In this document: piece by piece, positions 49,601 to 60,565 of the stretch
Layout: each line of letters begins with the position of its first letter
Position numbering within the stretch: position 1 is the stretch's first letter
NCBI RefSeq assembly: GCF_042453785.1
Contig: NC_091663.1
Location: 36,415,001-36,479,000, forward strand
Length of the DNA stretch: 64,000 nucleotides
Direction: 5' to 3'
From: Malus domestica
Lineage: Eukaryota; Streptophyta; Magnoliopsida; Rosales; Rosaceae
The notes under the pieces: model-generated
Seen by the model: the letters and a program-made list of their open reading frames with translations, nothing else
The model's database searches: none
Told to the model about the DNA's origin: nothing
Program-made: the position numbers and the translations under genes

Positions 49601-49966
49601 TTACATCACTTTTAAAACATGGTTAACCAAATGCTCATTTGTTTTATTTTACAGCTGATTATTCTTAAACCACAACATAAACATTTTTTTTAAAAGCACA
49701 GCAATCCCAAACTGGCCCTTAGTCTCACACACAATCCTGTTTAATTATGTCCCTTGTTTACGTTTAATTTATTTAATTTTGTTGTTATAATAATTAAAAA
49801 ATGAGTGAGAAGCTAATAAGAGAGTGAAAATCACTTCCGTAATTGATATTGTTGATTTGTTACTGGAATAGTGCTATTTGATGACATTACTTTAGTCTAA
49901 AGTAGGATCTCCAATTGCACTGTTCAAGTGAAAATCATATCGGAACAGACAAAGGTACTCAAACTC

Positions 49967-50176
49967 GGAGATGGATTGTCTGCCCTCCCCTTTCCATACC
50001 CTCCTCATACTCTCTTGTTTTGTGCGGTTACAGTTAAGTCACGTCAACATTTGCTTTTTGTCTTATTATTTTTATATAAAAATTAATATAAAATGTTGAC
50101 GTGGCTTAACCGTGACTGCACAAAATAGGAGGGCATGGGGAGGATATGGGAAGGGGAGGGCAGACAATCCATCTCC
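49967..50176. mobile_element. Mutator-like hairpin MITE with a 9-bp target duplication
   Basis: 210 bp with nearly perfect inverted arms of about 85 bp (left GGAGATGGATTGTCTGCCCT, right the complement). Both flanks are CTCAAACTC (49958-49966 and 50177-50185), a 9-bp duplication. The paralogous stretch at about 48512-48530 has a single CTCAAACTC and no insert, a proper related empty site. Non-coding. Confidence 0.92.
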
Positions 50177-50185
50177 CTCAAACTC

Positions 50186-51060
50186 AAGTGTCGCACATGC
50201 TGACATCCAACAAACCAATCAAAACAAAAGATGCATAAAAGGGTCTCGAGTTTTGCCAAATACCAATGAATATGCTTTACCCAAATGAAGGAATAGACTT
50301 ACCATCATAGGAAACTCATGCCTCCTCTCTACGAAGCTTTGCTGGCTCTCTGTGTTTTCTCACCTGCAATTTAGACCCAATGCGCAGAGGCATTTCACCC
50401 ATGAAATTCTAAATCAGAAACATCTAAAAATAGAGAACAAAGAACCGAGAAAATAGTGTGTGCGGGCATGCGTGTTTCTCGGGTATATTTCATCAAACAG
50501 GTGATAGGCCCTGAACAAAAAAATGCATATGAATGTAAATGTTGTTTGTAAACTCAAATGGAACGCGTAAAATTACACTATAACATGGTTTGGCAATTTC
50601 ATTTCATTTAACTGATTTCAAATTCAATAATCAGAACATAAAAGAAGAAATACGAAAAATTACAGTTAGAAGTCACACATCAGTTAAAAGAGTTGAAAAA
50701 TAAGCAAGCTTGCTTAGGGAACTATATTTAAAATTTTCTCTCAGTGAGGTTTAAATAATCAGGCATTTAGAAAATAATTATTCCAAAAATTTCAACAAAC
50801 GTAATTAATTTGGTGATTAGCAATAGTATGCACTGATACAAACAAAAACTTGAATTCCAATCTCATGATGATTAATCTAAATCTAATGCGTAGTTTTCAA
50901 TTAAAAAAAATCTAGTAAGTAATTACAAATCATACAAACAAAAATATTGGATCGTGATTTATATTGCAAAATTTGATCAAAATAAGATGATTATTAATCC
51001 AGCGGGTTTCTTCACTCCTATTACATAAGACAAAAATACCTACATCAATACTACGAAAGT
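50186..51060. other. Intergenic, no gene seen
   Basis: AT-rich. The first 40 bases continue the paralogy with 48530-48560; nothing else is recognised. Confidence 0.5.
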
Positions 51061-51671
51061 TCTATTACTTTAGTCTAAAGAAGGCTTTTCAATTGCACTG
51101 TACCAATGAACAGTGTTTTGCATCACATTTCAGTTTATTTACAAGATTACCACTCGGATGCTTTTAACCACCTTTCATTTAATTTACAAAATTGCCACTC
51201 AGGCTTAAAAACCTATTTTCAGCCGTTGGCTGCATTTCACGTTTGACTCGGCGAGAGAGAGGGGAGGGGGACATCACGCCTGACAAATTGGAGAGAGACA
51301 ATCGCTCCCATTTTTGACTCGGAGACAGCTGGGTGTGCCTCTGGCGAGCGGAGATAGGAGGATAGAGTGACTACAGAGGAGGGAGACACAGAGCCTGACA
51401 GATTGGATAGAGATGGGAGCTACGGGTTTGGACTGAGTGAGAAAGATATTTAGGTAGGTGCTCTGCCAAGCTCTCTCTGCCGCTAATCTTGATGCAAACG
51501 TGTTGATAATCATGGGAAGGGTAGAACGATGGTAAAGCTGGCCTTTTCCATTTCCTTCTCAAACCCTCATTGCCTCTTCCGTCTCGCAGACTCTCGCAGA
51601 CCCTATGAGAACGACAGTCTCGCCTCCATCCTATCCTCCAGTCGCCGCCGTCTCCCTTCTCGAGGTAGGGT

Positions 51672-52475
51672 GTTGTGCGTGTGCGGACACCATCAGTTGC
51701 TGGATTCATTAACCCCGGTTCTGAGGGATTTCAAAAGCTATTTTTCCGTTGAGGAAATCGCCATACCGGTGCACTCAAAGTAAGTCGCCATTCTCTCATC
51801 CTCTTCCTAGATTTCGTCTTTCGTGGCTGCAAGCCAAGTTTTGTATAGTTATCTATATGCATGTATGCTTGGTTAATCTTAATTTTCCATATCCAATATA
51901 TTCAAATCATGTTATTAGTCAGATTACTATTTGTGATCTGTTGTTTCGAGATTGTCTAACCTTTAGGTTGATAACTGTTGCAGCATTGAAGCATCATATG
52001 CCGCACATCCTATTGCTGATGTCTTTATCAACTTTGCTTCATACAGAAGGTCAATGATTATTCTATGAGTAGTGTTTTGGAGTGCAAAGCTTATATGGTT
52101 GCACCTAACGATGAATGTATGTTGATATATCTGCAGTGATGCTGCTTCTTCCATGGCTGCTTTGAAGCAACCAACCATTAGAGTTGTGGCAATCATTGCT
52201 GAAGGTGTACCTGAGTCAGCTGAAGGTGTACCTGAGTCAGACACTAAGCAATTGATTGCATATGCACGGGCAACCAACAAGGTTACACGATTGATGCAAA
52301 GTCATCTTAATTTCACTAACCTGGGAAAATGAACTGGCGATGCTAACTTTAATTATCGTATCTTTTGCAGGTTGTCATTGGCTCAGCTACTGTTGGAGGA
52401 ATTCAAGCTGGTGCTTTTAAGATTGGTGACACTGCTGAAACAATTAATAACTTTATTCCTGTATTTTCTGGATAA
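51672..52475 (+). pseudogene. ACLB: ATP-citrate synthase beta chain (ACLB), 5' exons, relic
   Basis: Exon pieces are at about 51672-51779 (TPSVAGFINPGSEGFQKLFF, then in another frame EEIAIPVHS), 51984-52049 (EASYAAHPIADVFINFASYR), 52137-52281 (AASSMAALKQPTIRVVAIIA, ending QLIAYARATNK) and 52371-52475 (VVIGSATVGGIQAGAFKIGD, then a stop soon after). Splice sites are kept, so it is a DNA-level copy. There is one frame change before EEIAI, and AEGVPES occurs twice in a row through a 21-bp tandem duplication (52198-52218, 52219-52239). The rest of the roughly 600-residue protein is absent. ACLB is the catalytic subunit for cytosolic acetyl-CoA supply. Confidence 0.92.
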
Positions 52476-52769
52476 TTCTTTTATCCCCTTTCTTCTGCGT
52501 TTAATTTGCTTAGGAAAATTTGTTTTGGAACTAAAAGTGTGTGTCTCGTAATGTGATTAAACTCTGTTAACAAGGATTTTGGTCTCTAGATTTTTCATGG
52601 TGGAATTCTTATGGTGATAATTTTCTGCCGATGTCTTTGTTTTTGTACTTCTCTCAATTGTATGTAAATTCAATGAATTGTGAAATTTTTGGTGTGGTGT
52701 ATTCAATGAATTGGCCAAACGGATTGATAATTAACAATAGTAATAGTTGCTTTCACTTTGCAACACTTA

Positions 52770-53013
52770 TGGTGAAGCTGTAGATACCAGTGTTATATCT
52801 GAAGTCTATGCCCTTCGGATTGCAGTCGAGAGGCAGAGAATTTCTCTAAACAATGCTGGTCGCCTTCCCATTAATAAAATAAGGGATCCAAACTTAAATC
52901 GTGCTGAGATTTCTGATCTTCCAGTTGAGGACAAGTCACATAATCTGCTGGTAGAGGCCCTTCGTGGCCAGACTAAGAAGTTCAATACCATAGTGGCAGT
53001 CCGGCCGATTTGA
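52770..53013 (+). pseudogene. Unrecognised gene fragment with exon-like open frame
   Basis: After a GTAG acceptor-like site at about 52771 the frame reads SEVYALRIAVERQRISLNNA, GRLPINKIRDPNLNRAEISD, LPVEDKSHNLLVEALRGQTK, KFNTIVAVRPI and a stop. The amino-acid mix and lack of repeats suggest a real exon. It is not part of ACLB, and I do not recognise the family. Confidence 0.45.
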
Positions 53014-54786
53014 GGTGGGTAATACAAACTTTTATGTTAAGTTGATTCGTTTTGGTTTTTTGGGATGCTTAATTTCATCTGGAAACAAGGCTGAGCATCC
53101 AAAAGTTTCAAATTTATACCCATTATTCAATACTAGCTCAGTAATCATCATGTTTTCTCTGACTTTGTTTGTGAATGCTGATATATAATCATATTTTAAG
53201 AGTTTTCTATTGGGGAAATGTTAGGAGCCGATTGTCCCACTTCGAAAAAACAGCAGCAGTGGGTCCTCTTTAAAATTAATCCAACTGAAGAGACTAAGGA
53301 CTGGGCACCTTCTACAAACTGCAGTACTACTACTCATGCAAGGTCTATTTCATTTCCTCTTTTGCTCTCTAAATCTTCATAACTTGCTTTTAGGTGCATT
53401 TTTGTTTGATTCTTATTTAAAATGAATCTAATTGAATATTCATAATCAAAAGAATTAATTTTTCTAATTGCCCAATTTTGCAGGTTTTGTATTCAAGTCT
53501 ATGTCATTGCTTTATCTAAGGCAGTTGAAATGTGCATACAATATCTTAGTTTTTGTTTTTTCTTCTTTGGCTGCTTAGAGATTATGGGTCACCAGCCTGG
53601 TTTTTAATGGTATAGCAAAAGTTTGCATCTTTTTGTAAGCTGTGAAATAAATATCAGATTATCTTTGGCCGCTGCACGCCTATTGCAGAAAACACCACGA
53701 GTATTTTCCAGATCTTTCATCAGTAACTCCATGAAATAATCTTTCGGCACCCCTCCATGGCATAGAAGGGCAATTAAATTCCTCGAAAATTTTGTATTCC
53801 TAGGCTTTGTACTGAAAAATGAAAACGTCAACTTAAAAACTACGTCTTCATTTATTTGCTCTGCATCTTAAATTCTCAACTGTAGGGGGAGCAATATAAA
53901 TTAGGCAAACATACATTCTACATAATGGGTGTACCTTACTCCAACTATCTCCAACGAATTCACTGTTTGACCATCCAGCATCTGTCTATTTGTCTCAACA
54001 TTGGACATGGAATGCTGTCAGACTAAGAGAAATGCCCTGCCCATCGGGGCAATCCATCTCTCGACATTCCAGTTGCGTTTCCCAGAAAACATTGAGGATT
54101 CAATTGGTTCACAGTCATCTGCTTCCCTCCACAGATCTTCTTCACAGCATAACATCTGCCTTCGTCTCACTCTCACTACTCAGGTATTTCACTGATTTGG
54201 GGTTTTACGCAATTACAAATTTAAGTCCATTCATGTGTTGATCTCGGTTTATTTCTGTCACTCTCTATCTGACTTGAAAATAAAAACCCTAAGTTTAGAT
54301 TGTTCTCTGAATCCAGATTGATTTCATTCACGACAATTCTTAACAAATTTCCCCAATATGACATTTTCCCTTATTATTTTCATACATTTTATGGTTCTAA
54401 TCAGTCTTTTTCGACCTTTATCACTCCCTATACAATTGTGAATAAGTAAGTTCCATGTCTGCAAAACTCTAATTACTCTAATCTAATTATCTTTCAGGAA
54501 CCTAATCCCTGAACTTATTAAATTCGTTAGAGAGGTGATTTTGGATTGAATCCCAAAGTTCCCTTCCTATTTCTAAGGTTGGTGTTTTGTGCACATTTTG
54601 GGTGGTGGGTGTTGTGAATCATCACATTTTATTAAAGGTATTTGATCTGGGTAATTCTAAACCCATGTTTGGTAGTGCGAAAATGGTCTTGATTTTTTCT
54701 GCAGCTTACTACAGTTGTGGAAGTTGTGGTTTTGGGATAGTATAGGTTGAGTTCAAAACATCCTTGAGAAATAAGGGTTGGCACAG
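53014..54786. other. Spacer inside the fragment cluster
   Basis: AT-rich. 53220-53345 has an open stretch (CPTSKKQQQWVLFKINPTEE) that may be another exon piece. 53990-54190 could be a leader exon belonging to the rhomboid fragment, by position only. Confidence 0.35.
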
Positions 54787-54975
54787 ATGGGTAGGCCATT
54801 GGTTTTTGAGATCTTGGACAAACCAGCCACAAGTTGTTTCATAGGAATATGCAGTGCAATTTGGTTCTACATACAGAAGAAAAACATTGGCTATTCACTT
54901 GTGGCCTTGAGTTATGAAACTGCGGTTGCAGGGCACCATTGGAGGATTATAACTTCAGCTTTCTCTCATATAAGC
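54787..54975 (+). pseudogene. Rhomboid-like protease, first-exon fragment (RBL13-like)
   Basis: [63 protein letters not shown]. This matches the N-terminus and first membrane helix of a plant rhomboid group, with the conserved [12 protein letters not shown]. After HIS the sequence switches to [16 protein letters not shown], which is not rhomboid; the helices with the catalytic Ser and His are absent. There is no frame damage in the part that remains. Confidence 0.82.
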
Positions 54976-55139
54976 ATGAAAGCCGTGTCGAAGCTGGTAA
55001 AAAACGATTCCTCAGTGCATCAGGTAACTTCTATATGGTTTTCCCAAAATTAGATCACTTCTAATTCCGATCTGTGTTCTTCAATCATGTTGTCTTCGTC
55101 TGTTTTTAATTTTTGGGGCAGGTTCTTGACTATTTTCAG

Positions 55140-55299
55140 GGTATGTGGCTGTGAGCCCACATCAGAGGCCGGTTCGACATTCCGTTGTTTGTGAGGTTGC
55201 CACGAAGAAGCCTGACTCTGCCGTGAAGAGAGATCGGCAGGCCGAAAAGAGGAGGATTTACAACAAATCCCAGAAATCTGAAATCAAAACCCGGATGAA
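55140..55299 (+). pseudogene. Plastid ribosomal protein S20 (bS20c), single-exon fragment
   Basis: Exon from a CAG acceptor at 55139 to a GT donor at 55300. It reads SPHQRPVRHSVVCEVATKKP, then DSAVKRDRQAEKRRIYNKSQ, KSEIKTRMK. The AEKRR(I/V)YNK core and KSEI(K)TRMK are bS20 landmarks, and the residues before them resemble the end of a transit peptide. The first exon and the C-terminal helices are absent. It lies 165 bp after the rhomboid piece, in the same orientation. Confidence 0.85.
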
Positions 55300-57357
55300 G
55301 TAGGTACTTCTCTTATCGTTCTTCTTCACTTTCAAGAAGCACCGGTGTTTATTGAAAGTATATAATCCGTTTAGACATTTAGTTTTTGACGTATCAAGTA
55401 TTTTGCGTTGTTAGTTTTCTGTTACTTTTGTTGCTGCCTGCCTTTTTTTTTCTATTTTTTCGTTTTTATCCTCTTCTCTTTCACTTTTGTGCAACCCATT
55501 GTCCTCAGTTTATAATCTTTCGTTGGATAATTTGATCGCCTAATGTATTCTCAAGCAATATCTTTGGTTTTAAACTGTTGTAACCAGTTTAATCTTTAAA
55601 CTGTTCACTTTTAATCTTTAAACTATTCAATGTTAACCCCAACATTTTACTTTCATTCTTTACACATTGGAACCAAATTTAATTGGTGCTAAAAACGTAT
55701 AGAGCCTTTAACTATACCATGAATGCAATGTTAGCCAATAAAAAATTATAAAAGTAACTTTGTCATGGGCTATAATCATATACAACATCGTTCCATGATT
55801 ATTACCAACCTTTAAAATCAAATTTAGCATCAGTATGTTTTACCTATCTGTTTCAATCTCAACCACTAGCAGCTACAATTTTGTATTAATCACCGTTATC
55901 GATTGTTCTTAACATATGATCATCAGATCCCAATATGTCGACTGTCGTTTTCCCTACCTTATTGTATGTGAAACAATTATATTTGCACTCACTTTTATTC
56001 ATTGGAAACAGTATTTGTCTCTCCGTATCCAATCCTTGGTGCAAAATGTTTACAATTTGAATCTGATTCAGCGTCCTACAGCCAAATTGTAATCAATCTG
56101 AAAGAACTGCGTCTGTTCGCGGTCTTCAAGGTATAACATTGATCACTATCAACTTTAAATTTCTTTTTCAACATTTTTTCCTTTTGCATTTCTTTAAAAA
56201 AAACCTTTATTCAATATATACTGATATGGTCACTTATAGCATAAAAAAACTTCATCTTTTTTGTCAATATTTAAGTTTTTCTTATTTTTCTTCGTGAACC
56301 AGGTTAGCCCATAACTCTGTAACCATCCACGTATAGAACTTATCCATTTTTATCATTGTGGTATCAATACAAATTTTCTCTTATTTTTTGAGGTGGGATT
56401 GGTCTTAAAATACAAGAACCAGAATTTAATTGATCCCATTGTTCTGTACACAAAAATTCCATCGACCCAAAAACCTCATGTGGAAAACAAATGTATTTGC
56501 CTTTTTTTTTCTGCTTCTCCTTAGTTTTTACGTATTATTTCATTTTTTTCCTCATCATTCTCTCTTTCATGATTAGGTTTAACGCACAGTTTTTAAACCT
56601 CTTAAACCCTGTGTGTTTTGCTTCATTATTTAACATTCATTTGGATTTGTGATTGATATCAACTTGGTCACGTTTTCATACTTGCAAAGCATCTTTAGAG
56701 TAATGCCTTTAAACTGTGTCAATTTTTCAATGAAAAACCTTGAGAACCTTATTCAGTATTTGGCGATTAGATGAAACATCAACATAATTTCCCTCGCTTT
56801 GACCGATTCTCTGTGATTAAAGTCTGGAAAAATACAGTGAAAAAGGTGCAGCTTTTTTATGGGATTGACAATTTTCGGCTTAGTTTTGGCTAAAAAAGAA
56901 TTAGCGTGTTACTTATTAAGTTGAGTTAACAAATTTGCAGGGTACAACAGAGCACATAGGACAAGTTTTCAAACGAGTTAAGATCCAGCTGAAAAGAGCA
57001 TACAAGATAGAGAACTGGTATGCTGCTTTGTCTTTGTGTTGGATTTTTATGTTTAGGTTCTGCTGCTCAGTAGACTTTATAGTGTTCTAAATCTGTTTTG
57101 TAAATGTGCTAAAAGATTGGACATGTTATTGAATATTAGCCATGTAGTTTGAATTGGATATGTGATTGAATGTTAGGTATTTAGTTTGAATTGATTTGGA
57201 TATGTGGTTTATTGAATTGGAATTTGGTTATGTGCTAATTTGAATTGGATATGTTGAATTAGAGATGTGCTACTTTGAATTGGATAGGTTGAATTGAAGT
57301 GTGCTATATTGATATATGATGAACTGATGGTTACAGAACACACACGCACACACTCAC
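55300..57357 (+). other. Spacer with two exon-like pieces of unknown origin
   Basis: 56012-56130 (AG before, GT after) is open as FVSPYPILGAKCLQFESDSA, SYSQIVINLKELRLFAVFK. 56941-57017 (TTTGCAG before, GTATGC after) is open as GTTEHIGQVFKRVKIQLKRA, YKIEN. Both have good splice borders and protein-like composition; neither family is recognised. 57110-57310 is a degenerate run of TTGAATTGGATATGT units. Confidence 0.4.
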
Positions 57358-57470
57358 CAGTTATCACATACTCTGGGGATGCATAACCATAGGTTCCCAC
57401 GACTCGCGTCGAAACATGAGTTTTATCACCCTTCGCAAGTTTGAAATCCGAAAGCTTGCCATTGTAATCC
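57358..57470 (-). pseudogene. Receptor-like cytoplasmic kinase (RLCK VII/PBL type), single-exon fragment
   Basis: A 113 bp exon bounded by TTTTAG and GTGAGT, reading [20 protein letters not shown] then [17 protein letters not shown]. This is the activation segment of PBL-type kinases. The DFG glycine is Lys (DFK), and a few residues between LAK and GDKTHVS are missing. The rest of the kinase is absent. It is the only piece of this cluster clearly on the minus strand. Confidence 0.82.
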
Positions 57471-57801
57471 TAAAATAACTCATTCATTTAACACATGAAA
57501 ATTATGCATTTTCATAATTAAAGTTTTAAATTGTCATCATTCTGGTCAAATGCACCATTTCCGTTTTGTTTCCCTTCTCTCATCTTGCAAGCACTCATGG
57601 TGTCTATTTCCTTTTAATTTCGGTTAATGTAGGTTTTGAAATTTGTGATGATCATTTTCATATTTCTATAAATTTTGAGAGAAAAAAGCATGTGAAAAAG
57701 ACACCTAAAAGCAGCTAAGTAAACAGTTTAATCAAGAAGCAATTCAGAAGTAGAACCAAATAAGCCACAGTCCAACTTTTGCACACCCTCCGACGTAATT
57801 T

Positions 57802-58010
57802 AATATCAGAAACCGTCTCCTGAATTCAAGTTTTCCTAGAGCTTCTAATTGTGTGTGCCCATAGTGTCTTTCTTGGTCTACAACAAAGCACTTATTAGTG
57901 AGAGCAATATCAGAAACCGTCTCCTGAATTCAAGTTTGCCTAGAGCTTCTAATTGTGTGTGCCCATCGTGTCTTTCTTAGTCTACAACCAAGGACTGATT
58001 AGTGAGAGCT
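57802..58010. repeat. Tandem duplication, 104 bp unit, two copies
   Basis: 57802-57905 and 57906-58010 both start AATATCAGAAACCGTCTCCT and run to TAGTGAGAGC, with about 6 differences. Confidence 0.95.
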
Positions 58011-58908
58011 TCAAAAATAGATAGTTATCATAAACAAACAATTGATCACAATGATAATTTGGGTTTATAGTGCTTCTAAATGCTGTTTTAATTGAGTTTT
58101 CTGTGTTTGGTCGATTTGTTGTTGCGGATGGGTGATACGTTTTTTTCTTTCAGTTAAGAAACGATGCCTTTCAGAATTTGTAATTTTTTGTTGGGGTTTT
58201 TTCAAGCTGCTGTGTTAAAGGTATATGATGTGTTTTTTTCTTTCGCTTTATTCTTGCTGATTTGGGATGGTTTTTACATTGTATTTTTGTTATGAGTTTG
58301 TTGTCCCATTTTTGTAATGGACTTGGAATGAAATGGGATTGGAGGGTGATAAAAATTTCTAGCTAGCTAGGGAAAGGTCAGAGTGTTCAGATTTTGCAGG
58401 TGGGATATTAGGGTGAGGGATATTAGGCCGTGCCTTTGGAAGGTCTCACTGCTTTTAAAGTTGAATGGTGCTAACTGAATATAATGCGTTCATTCTTCAT
58501 TGTGCGTGAGCGTATGTGTATGCAGTATATGTGAGTGCATGCAGTGTCACTTGGGCCGTTGGCTTTTTGAGGTATGTTCATTTATAGAGATTTTGTAACT
58601 GTATTGTTGAATTTTTAATGTATTCTTGGATTTTAAAGGGGCACCATATTTATGGGTTGTTGTACGATTCTAGGGAGATAAAGAGGGGATTGAGAGGTCA
58701 TGCTAAGGAGAGTATATTACTTGAGAACTTTTTTGGAAACCATCTCTTTCTAATCAAAGACGTTCAGTTTCTTCCCACTCATTATACAATGTGTTTATAT
58801 GCCAGCTCACTTGAATGTATATAAAAAAAATTGTTTGCTCATAATTGTGTTGAATTTATTCAACTTAAATGTGTTTTATTCATCCGATTACACCTGAAAC
58901 AACATGTT
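58011..58908. other. Spacer before the Helitron-like terminus
   Basis: AT-rich, no gene recognised. Confidence 0.45.
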
Positions 58909-59159
58909 CCCGCAGCAACGCGCGGGCATATTTTCTTGTAGTTCCTATGAAAAACCTGTATTTAACCAACCTACTCTTTTCAAATGGAATTTGGTGTCTG
59001 AAAAATGAGAAATTCAAAAACTTTGCTGCAGAAATTAAAAAACAAAAACCAAACACTTACTATGTATTATCACTTTAATTCTAATTGCCACTTCAAGCTC
59101 CCTAGCTTTTGACGCATCATGATCATACTCATAAAGCAACTAAAATTTTCAACTGGATT

Positions 59160-59926: not shown

Positions 59927-60565
59927 CTACAACAACAACAACAAAGCCTTTTCCCACTAAGTGGGGTCGGCTATATGAATCCTAGAACGCCATTGCGCTC
60001 GGTTTTGTGTCATGTCCTCCGTTAGATCCAAGTACTCAAGTCTTTTCTTAGGGTCTCTTCCAAAGTTTTCCTAGGTCTTCCTCTACCCCTTCGGCCCTGA
60101 ACCTCTGTCCCGTAGTCACATTTTCGAACCGGAGCGTCAGTAGGCCTTCTTTGCACATCTCCAAACCACCGGAACCGATTTTCTCTCATATTTCCTTCAA
60201 TTTTGGCTACTCCTACTTTACCTCGGATATCCTCATTCCCAATCTTATCCTTTCTCGTGTGCCCATACATCCCACGAAGCATCCTCATCTCCGCTACACC
60301 CATTTTGTGTACGTGTTGATGCTTCACCGCCCAACATTCTGTGCCATACAACATCGCTGGCCTTATTGCCGTCCTATAAAATTTTCCCTTAAGCTTCAGT
60401 GGCCTACAACGGTCACACAACACGCCGGATGCATTCTGACACTTCATCCATCCAGCTTGTATTCTATGGTTGAGATCTCCATCTAATTCTCCGTTCTCTT
60501 GCAAGATAGATCCTAGGTAGCGAAAACGGTCACTTTTTGTGATCTTCGCTAGATTGCTCCGGTCA
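59927..60565 (-). mobile_element. RTE-type LINE, 5'-truncated 3' end
   Basis: On the minus strand it encodes the C-terminal part of an RTE polyprotein: DRFRYLGSILQENGELDGDL, NHRIQAGWMKCQNASGVLCD, YRTAIRPAMLYGTECWAVKH, VAEMRMLRGMYGHTRKDKIG, GRRGRGRPRKTLEETLRKDL. A frame change then ends it a few codons later. The 3' end is a (TTG)n run and TAG at 59927-59943, typical of RTE elements, abutting the LRR sequence. The reverse transcriptase core and endonuclease are absent. Confidence 0.9.

Follow-up and report, generated by a model that had tools for sequence, protein, structure and literature searches.

Pieces of several host genes lie side by side on contig NC_091663.1 of Malus domestica and stop at a small hairpin. 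Did a single transposable element carry them there, and, if so, what led it to its site? We addressed both questions in the window, the whole 64,000-nucleotide stretch analysed (G000:C3:36415001-36479000), and in searches of the genome (651 Mb in 19 contigs). An initial annotation, made from the letters of the window, had proposed a gene-capturing Helitron, and multi-gene capture by plant Helitrons is established. This finding holds: judged by its sequence, the block 51065-58938 is one non-autonomous Helitron-type element, of a non-canonical kind, with captured pieces of several genes. The full reading is of a rolling-circle element of the Helitron kind, a mosaic with captures, moved in trans and targeted to A^T-N5-CTA (the caret marking the point of insertion), and we give it a probability of about 0.9.

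The boundaries follow from copies and from empty sites. Copies agree from TTACTTTAGTCTAAAG on the 5' side up to CTNG on the 3' side, and the sequences outside differ. A query in which window position 51064 was joined to 58939 gave 26 genome matches, 11 of them spanning the joint. Two of these empty sites, both on C7, were aligned base by base and join the flanks exactly, with no gain or loss at the joint; as their alignments are identical, they are probably duplicates of one another. The shared ends of the copies and the uninterrupted empty sites thus define the element as 51065-58938, inserted between A and T without target-site duplication. Of 38 distinct left ends, 36 are preceded by a host A, and all 69 distinct right ends are followed by T, in part because T was the last letter of some search patterns. 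The block would have arrived by a single insertion, in spacer beside sequence of a leucine-rich repeat (LRR)-type gene cluster.

Several pieces also occur alone elsewhere in the genome, as would be expected if the cluster were an old run of ordinary segmental duplications ending by chance at the hairpin. However, copies at unrelated places have exactly the same two ends and dissimilar surroundings, and the empty sites joining the flanks at A^T contradict such an origin, which we reject as scarcely credible. The initial annotation had placed the 3' end correctly, at CTTG^T after 58938 with its CCCGC/GCGGG stem at 58909-58926, and the copies share that end. Its guess of a 5' end at 51061/51062, starting with TC, was wrong: 51061-51064 is common to no copy, and copies and empty sites put the start four bases further in, at 51065, with TTAC. 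The motif it had seen twice, at 49882 and at 51062, proved to be the true 5' terminus of the family. The checks it had suggested turned up other copies that share the 3' end with different flanks, as well as sites on C7 (paralogous ones) that lack the block between A and T; an end shared by no other copy, which it had named as counting against a Helitron, is not what was found.

The family is large. For a search with 58700-58938, the best 40 of 235 candidates were scored, the window included, so that the counts are lower bounds; at least 36 of these 40 matches reach to within 4 bases of 58938, at 72-100% identity. With up to 3 mismatches allowed, the terminal 33-mer is found 58 times, and its reversed control not at all. 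Among the best 40 of 252 matches to 51000-51300, many start at 51063-51065. Genome-wide, the 17-mer ATTACTTTAGTCTAAAG, which is the 5' terminus plus the preceding A, has 223 exact copies and the 3'-end pattern CGCGGGCNTANTTTCTNGT has 66 exact matches, with none for the reversed control of either. Twenty loci of 9.9 kb were fetched around right ends. All 20 contain the end region, and 14 (L013-L021, L023-L026, and L030) carry the left terminus upstream in the correct orientation. No left terminus was seen in the 9.9-kb stretches of the other six (L022, L027, L028, L029, L031, and L032), where the element may be broken or extend beyond what was fetched.

Pairing of ends was scored on C1-C6 alone, the contigs fully covered by the 100 of 223 left ends that were listed, with right ends taken from the 33-mer and pattern sets. 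Of 44 right ends, 23 (window included) have an exact same-strand left terminus no more than 20 kb upstream, at a spacing of 4.9-18.2 kb (median, 8.6 kb), whereas a wrongly arranged left terminus was found for 4 of 44 despite a three-fold search space. As left ends with mismatches are absent from the list, 23 is a lower bound.

The termini point to the Helitron superfamily and away from its canonical plant group. Folded as single-stranded DNA, the last 34 bases reach -6.8 kcal/mol (z -2.1; matched by 6 of 200 shuffles), and the stem ends 12 bases before the terminus, which agrees with the short 3' hairpin of the superfamily. Folding of the repeat in the left terminus does not exceed chance (z -1.2; matched by 29 of 200 shuffles), and a left-end hairpin was dropped as a candidate feature. 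Canonical plant Helitrons (Helitron1) have a 5' TC and a 3' CTRR; because the 5' terminus here is TTAC, we do not file the element among them. The departure from CTRR that had been pointed out for the terminal CTTG applies to the window copy, and CTTG is a minority variant in the family, whose 69 distinct 3' ends comprise 33 CTAG, 31 CTCG, 3 CTTG, and 2 CTCA. Other non-canonical Helitrons with TT- or TTTT-type targets exist; in the part of PMC5148889 available to us, Helentron/Helitron2 elements are given TT or TTTT^T insertion and terminal inverted repeats. Here the insertion is at A^T, and the two ends are, by inspection, not inverted repeats of each other.

A candidate autonomous partner carries the same ends. 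The PF14214 profile has 142 matches in the genome, one of which, at C7:10898119 (+), is flanked by an exact left terminus (C7:10886974) on one side and a right end (C7:10903177) on the other. The 16.2 kb thus bounded (C7:10886975-10903176), about 5.8 kb of which was read, resembles the window copy at its left end (94.9% over 78 bp) and right end (76% over 96 bp). Its frames of 212 and 800 amino acids, on the same strand, match PF14214 (1.7e-35) and PIF1 (1.5e-88). The Rep (HUH) and PIF1-type helicase domains characteristic of the superfamily are therefore present in the C7 partner, which the shared ends link to the window copy; a non-autonomous copy would not itself need to encode them. Transposition would take place in trans, by the Rep-helicase of full-length relatives with the same ends. 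Another Rep copy, at C9:17884451, was set aside in favor of the one on C7, since no left terminus (at up to 3 substitutions) was found in the 9.9 kb fetched upstream.

To turn to the site itself, right ends were collected regardless of their flanks, and identical flanks were counted once, which reduced 71 to 69. Left out of this set were L046 and L091, real right ends that were filtered off (CTA at +8 and +7, with the base after the right end as +1); L039 and L041, whose right end the script did not match; and chance matches that fell within L008, L014, L017, L018, L019, L029, and the window. CTA starts at +7 in 45 of the 69 flanks; 11 more have it at +8, 2 at +9, and none at +6. The genome-wide pattern matches, which overlap with this set, give a similar picture, with CTA at +7 (T-N5-CTA) for 41 of 66 right ends and at +8 for 9 of 66. 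The background rate of CTA at +7, taken from 53,480 A^T sites in the fetched DNA (the elements themselves and overlapping loci among them), is 1.16%, and in 2000 within-flank shuffles the highest CTA count at any offset was 8. A is found at +9, +10, and +11 in 51, 50, and 50 of the 69 flanks, respectively. The motif accompanies both main end types (CTA at +7 in 20 of 31 CTCG ends and 22 of 33 CTAG ends). On the 5' side of left ends, no positions are conspicuous apart from -1, with A, and -2, with T or C (30 of 38). As the empty sites of the window copy already contain the motif, it was in that case not brought by the element. The family would pick targets of the form A^T-N5-CTA and, less often, ones with N6.

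Could the CTA, rather than being chosen at insertion, merely reflect a tendency to settle in front of Helitron left ends already in place, or in DNA rich in A+T? The flanks are indeed A+T rich, and 12 of the 69 distinct ones resemble Helitron left ends (8 TCTATTCTAAA, 1 TCAATTCTAAAG, and 3 TATATACTAAAAC). However, CTA remains at +7 in 37 of 61 flanks when the eight TCTATTCTAAA flanks are removed, C occupies +7 in 53 of 69 although C makes up 18% of the DNA, and the window target is LRR-cluster DNA that is present without any element. Such an explanation is quite improbable.

The target motif is laid out like a Helitron left end. Among the 69 distinct flanks, 8 have TCTATTCTAAAG, with T at position 1 and CTAAAG from position 7, directly after the right end. 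The genome has 15 occurrences of TTTCTNG^TCTATTCTAAA (reversed control, 1). We take TCTATTCTAAAG to be the left end of related Helitrons because it has a TC start, then TCTAAAG, a G-rich stretch, and a G/CAC box like the left end of the family studied here; two of the stretches downstream of it are 68% alike over 115 bp. Right ends of these putative elements were not found in the 1.5-kb downstream stretches. The family's own left end, TTAC followed by TTTAGTCTAAAG, has the T-N5-CTAAAG layout from its fifth base, four bases further in. From this common layout we infer that target nicking would use the same readout as left-end nicking, with the consequence that elements would stack directly before the left ends of other Helitrons. 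At L088, a right end is followed by TCTATTCTAAAACCGCAGCAACGCAC, a left-end-like word running almost directly into right-end-like hairpin sequence.

Two mechanisms fit: Rep may read target and left end alike, or TTTAG may pair with CTAAA, the former being simpler. That the transposase picks left-end-imitating targets (A^T-N5-CTAAA) in either way, through recognition of the donor left end or IS608-like TTTAG pairing, is a tentative proposal to which we give somewhat less than even odds. If true, the element's own terminus would dictate the choice of target, and this would account for stacks of unlike Helitrons arranged head to tail. IS608 is a bacterial element of the HUH type without a helicase. 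It (IS200/IS605) resembles the present family in HUH-type single-strand transposition to a sequence-specific target, guide pairing being an analogy only. Pairing of this kind would join left-end TTTAG (51069-51073) to target CTAAA. The left terminus does have CTTTAG beside CTAAAG, the target prefers CTAAA, with at least 4 of 5 bases matched at +7 to +11 in 41 of 69 flanks, and the tetranucleotide target of IS608 is reportedly read by base pairing, according to the portion of PMC5934647 available. However, the left-end repeat folds no more stably than its shuffled versions, and the target shows no preference for the sixth base, G (present at +12 in 11 of 69), which makes pairing an unlikely route.

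Several points weigh against the full reading. The 5' end is TT rather than TC, and the 3' CTTG falls outside CTRR. A CTA at +7 or +8 is lacking for 16 of 66 right ends; the search patterns themselves partly fixed the T at +1; and the window copy is the one case in which the motif was seen before insertion. Since all copies represent old insertions in the genome, survival bias may have shaped their flanks. The family's own left end has CTAAAG at +11, so that the target fits the layout of TCTATTCTAAAG better. In the partner, Rep and PIF1 lie in separate frames within the roughly 5.8 of 16.2 kb that were read, and its role in moving the window family is inferred from shared ends.

The comparisons that follow go by the parts of the cited papers available to us. 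The maize gene-capturing Helitrons HelA and HelB (PMC2267711) start with TC and end with CTAG, whereas TTAC and CTTG, CTCG, or CTAG are found here. One adjacent maize pair is described there, with two models for it, the second being insertion at an AT made of the host A and the next element's T. This model fits the present data, in which a right end stands directly before TCTATTCTAAA at 15 places as opposed to one case. Non-autonomous Helitrons of maize and rice (PMC2575219) likewise have A before the 5' end and, in rice, an A+T-rich 3' flank, but no maize flank consensus beyond the A is given, in contrast to the sharp CTA at +7/+8. The bat Helraiser and Helibat elements (PMC4778049 and PMC5876387) are alike in being RepHel driven, in having an A^T target with the strongest preference on the 3' side, and in using CTTG as an alternative end. 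They differ in an A+T-rich preference over about 20 bp, with no C-containing motif reported, and in a TC left end. Wheat Xuan-Feng Helitrons (PMC13286980) are also non-autonomous, with a RepHel partner and an AT target; only the AT dinucleotide is reported for their 49 and 86 de novo insertions. No report of a CTA flank motif was found in searches of a PMC library, subscription papers aside, which is no proof of absence. As a kind, then, the element is ordinary, with non-canonical ends that escape TC/CTRR-based finders. The sharp target motif matters more, as it bears on how Helitrons may choose sites beyond the AT dinucleotide, and its left-end layout offers a direct way to test whether recognition of donor and target are linked and suggests why Helitrons stack head to tail.

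At least five host genes have contributed captured pieces to the interior, those for ACLB, RNA-dependent RNA polymerase (RdRP), rhomboid, and S20 plus an unnamed gene, and there is also a kinase-like exon (Table 1).

Table 1. Features of the Helitron-type element and its target site (window coordinates)
Feature	Coordinates	Strand	Evidence or remark
Whole non-autonomous Helitron	51065..58938	+	7874 bp; host A 51064, host T 58939; shared ends and empty site
Left terminal sequence TTACTTTAGTCTAAAG with inverted repeat CTTTAG-T-CTAAAG	51065..51080	+	223 exact copies including preceding A
5' family-specific region	51081..51689	+	Partly common to 10/20 fetched loci (to 51153) and 4-5/20 (to 51648)
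ACLB (ATP-citrate lyase beta-type) piece, exons and introns	51686..52458	+	Stop/frame damage; 21-bp duplication
Captured stretch of unknown origin	52456..52767	+	93.6% to L113; also at several other places
Exon of unnamed gene	52771..53000	+	94.3% to L112 (C1), within 169-amino-acid open frame
Block inherited with sibling copies	53000..53641	+	Common to L014 and L017, 91%
Piece with RdRP fragment	53644..54002	-	93.3% to L114 (C2); PF05183
5' part of rhomboid gene	54057..54977	+	93.6% and 96.5% to L121 (C10)
Plastid ribosomal protein S20 gene piece	54978..55314	+	C11 matches; PDB chloroplast S20
Inherited sibling blocks including minus-strand kinase-like exon	55316..58420	+	L018, L019, L021, L013, L014, L017
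3' family-specific region and right terminal sequence	58423..58938	+	58731-58936 common to 20/20 fetched loci
3' hairpin CCCGC...GCGGG	58909..58926	+	Single-stranded DNA folding
Host target-site motif T-AGTTC-CTA (T N5 CTA)	58939..58947	+	Present in empty sites

Four of the six coding pieces are on the plus strand and two, the kinase-like exon and the RdRP fragment, on the minus strand. This corrects the single minus-strand piece of the initial annotation to two. The ACLB, rhomboid, and S20 assignments made from the letters were confirmed, by PDB matches for ACLB and S20 and by identity to the C10 Rhomboid locus. The three pieces recorded as unrecognised and plus-strand are now a C1 unnamed-gene exon, a stretch found at multiple sites, and the RdRP fragment, which is on the minus strand.

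The ACLB piece has 91.2% DNA identity, introns included, to L110 on C13, where the frames that flank the captured part to either side read by eye as ACLB. Its exon translation matches PDB ATP-citrate lyase chains (best E, 2e-29). Because Pfam scans of the piece and of the whole C13 locus, read through stops, gave no match, the identification rests on the PDB sequences. The 21-bp repeat unit occurs once in the C13 frames as opposed to being duplicated in the window piece. The same piece lies in an element on C5 (left terminus, C5:39534478; right end, C5:39521145), with ACLB at a similar distance from the left terminus. The adjoining 52456-52767 stretch is 95% identical to C5:45792772, which a further exact left terminus precedes by 3.7 kb. 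No significant Pfam family was found for the C1 169-amino-acid frame, and the RdRP fragment matches PF05183 at 1.7e-5 (24.2 bits, just above the cut-off of 23.8).

The C10 open reading frame of 275 amino acids matches PF01694 (Rhomboid) at 9.6e-24, the window piece itself having no Pfam match; no left terminus was found within the 4.8 kb read at the C10 locus. In the S20 piece, 54978-55248 is 93% identical to C11:6039177 and 55125-55313 is 92.1% identical to the S20-like L115 (C11). Its translation matches chloroplast S20 in PDB (2.8e-13) and PF01649 at 1.2e-5, below the Pfam cut-off. The rhomboid-S20 joint is also present at C9:30277496 and C16:35223297, which indicates that it would either predate the window insertion or have been copied from the window copy. 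The kinase-like exon, at about 57364-57469, has a weak Pkinase match (E, 0.0075 and 0.016, below the cut-off), and the label RLCK is presumptive.

The interior would be a mosaic in which blocks inherited with sibling copies alternate with captured host-gene pieces. L018, L019, and L021 share sequence with the window copy from 55316 (55316-57699; to about 58279), L013 from 56572, and L014 and L017 over 57223-58420, while 51690-52999 and 53642-55315 were found in none of the 20 fetched loci. As these window-only pieces lie between inherited blocks, away from the 3' end, their arrangement suggests internal gain or exchange, besides read-through past the 3' end; they may instead have been lost from the sibling copies. 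Within the element, 57802-58009 is a 104-bp tandem duplication, for which the alignment of L013 suggests three units, so that unit number would vary between sibling copies.

Other repeats lie nearby in the window. A second family left terminus, TTACTTTAGTCTAAAGTAGGATCTCC, occupies 49887-49963 after host A 49886, 1.2 kb upstream of the element; it corresponds to the 49882 motif of the initial annotation, no right end for it was recognised in the window, and it is probably a broken older copy. At 49972-50180 lies an inverted-repeat element with ends GGATTGTCTGCCCTCCCC and GGGGAGGGCAGACAATCC, similar to a miniature inverted-repeat transposable element and 72-75% identical, in both orientations, to stretches of L017 and L019. 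Downstream, a repeat starting with AAGCCTTTTCCCACTAAGTGGGGTCGGCTATATGAATCC at 59929-60000 is found at 91-100% identity in L025, L027, and L028.

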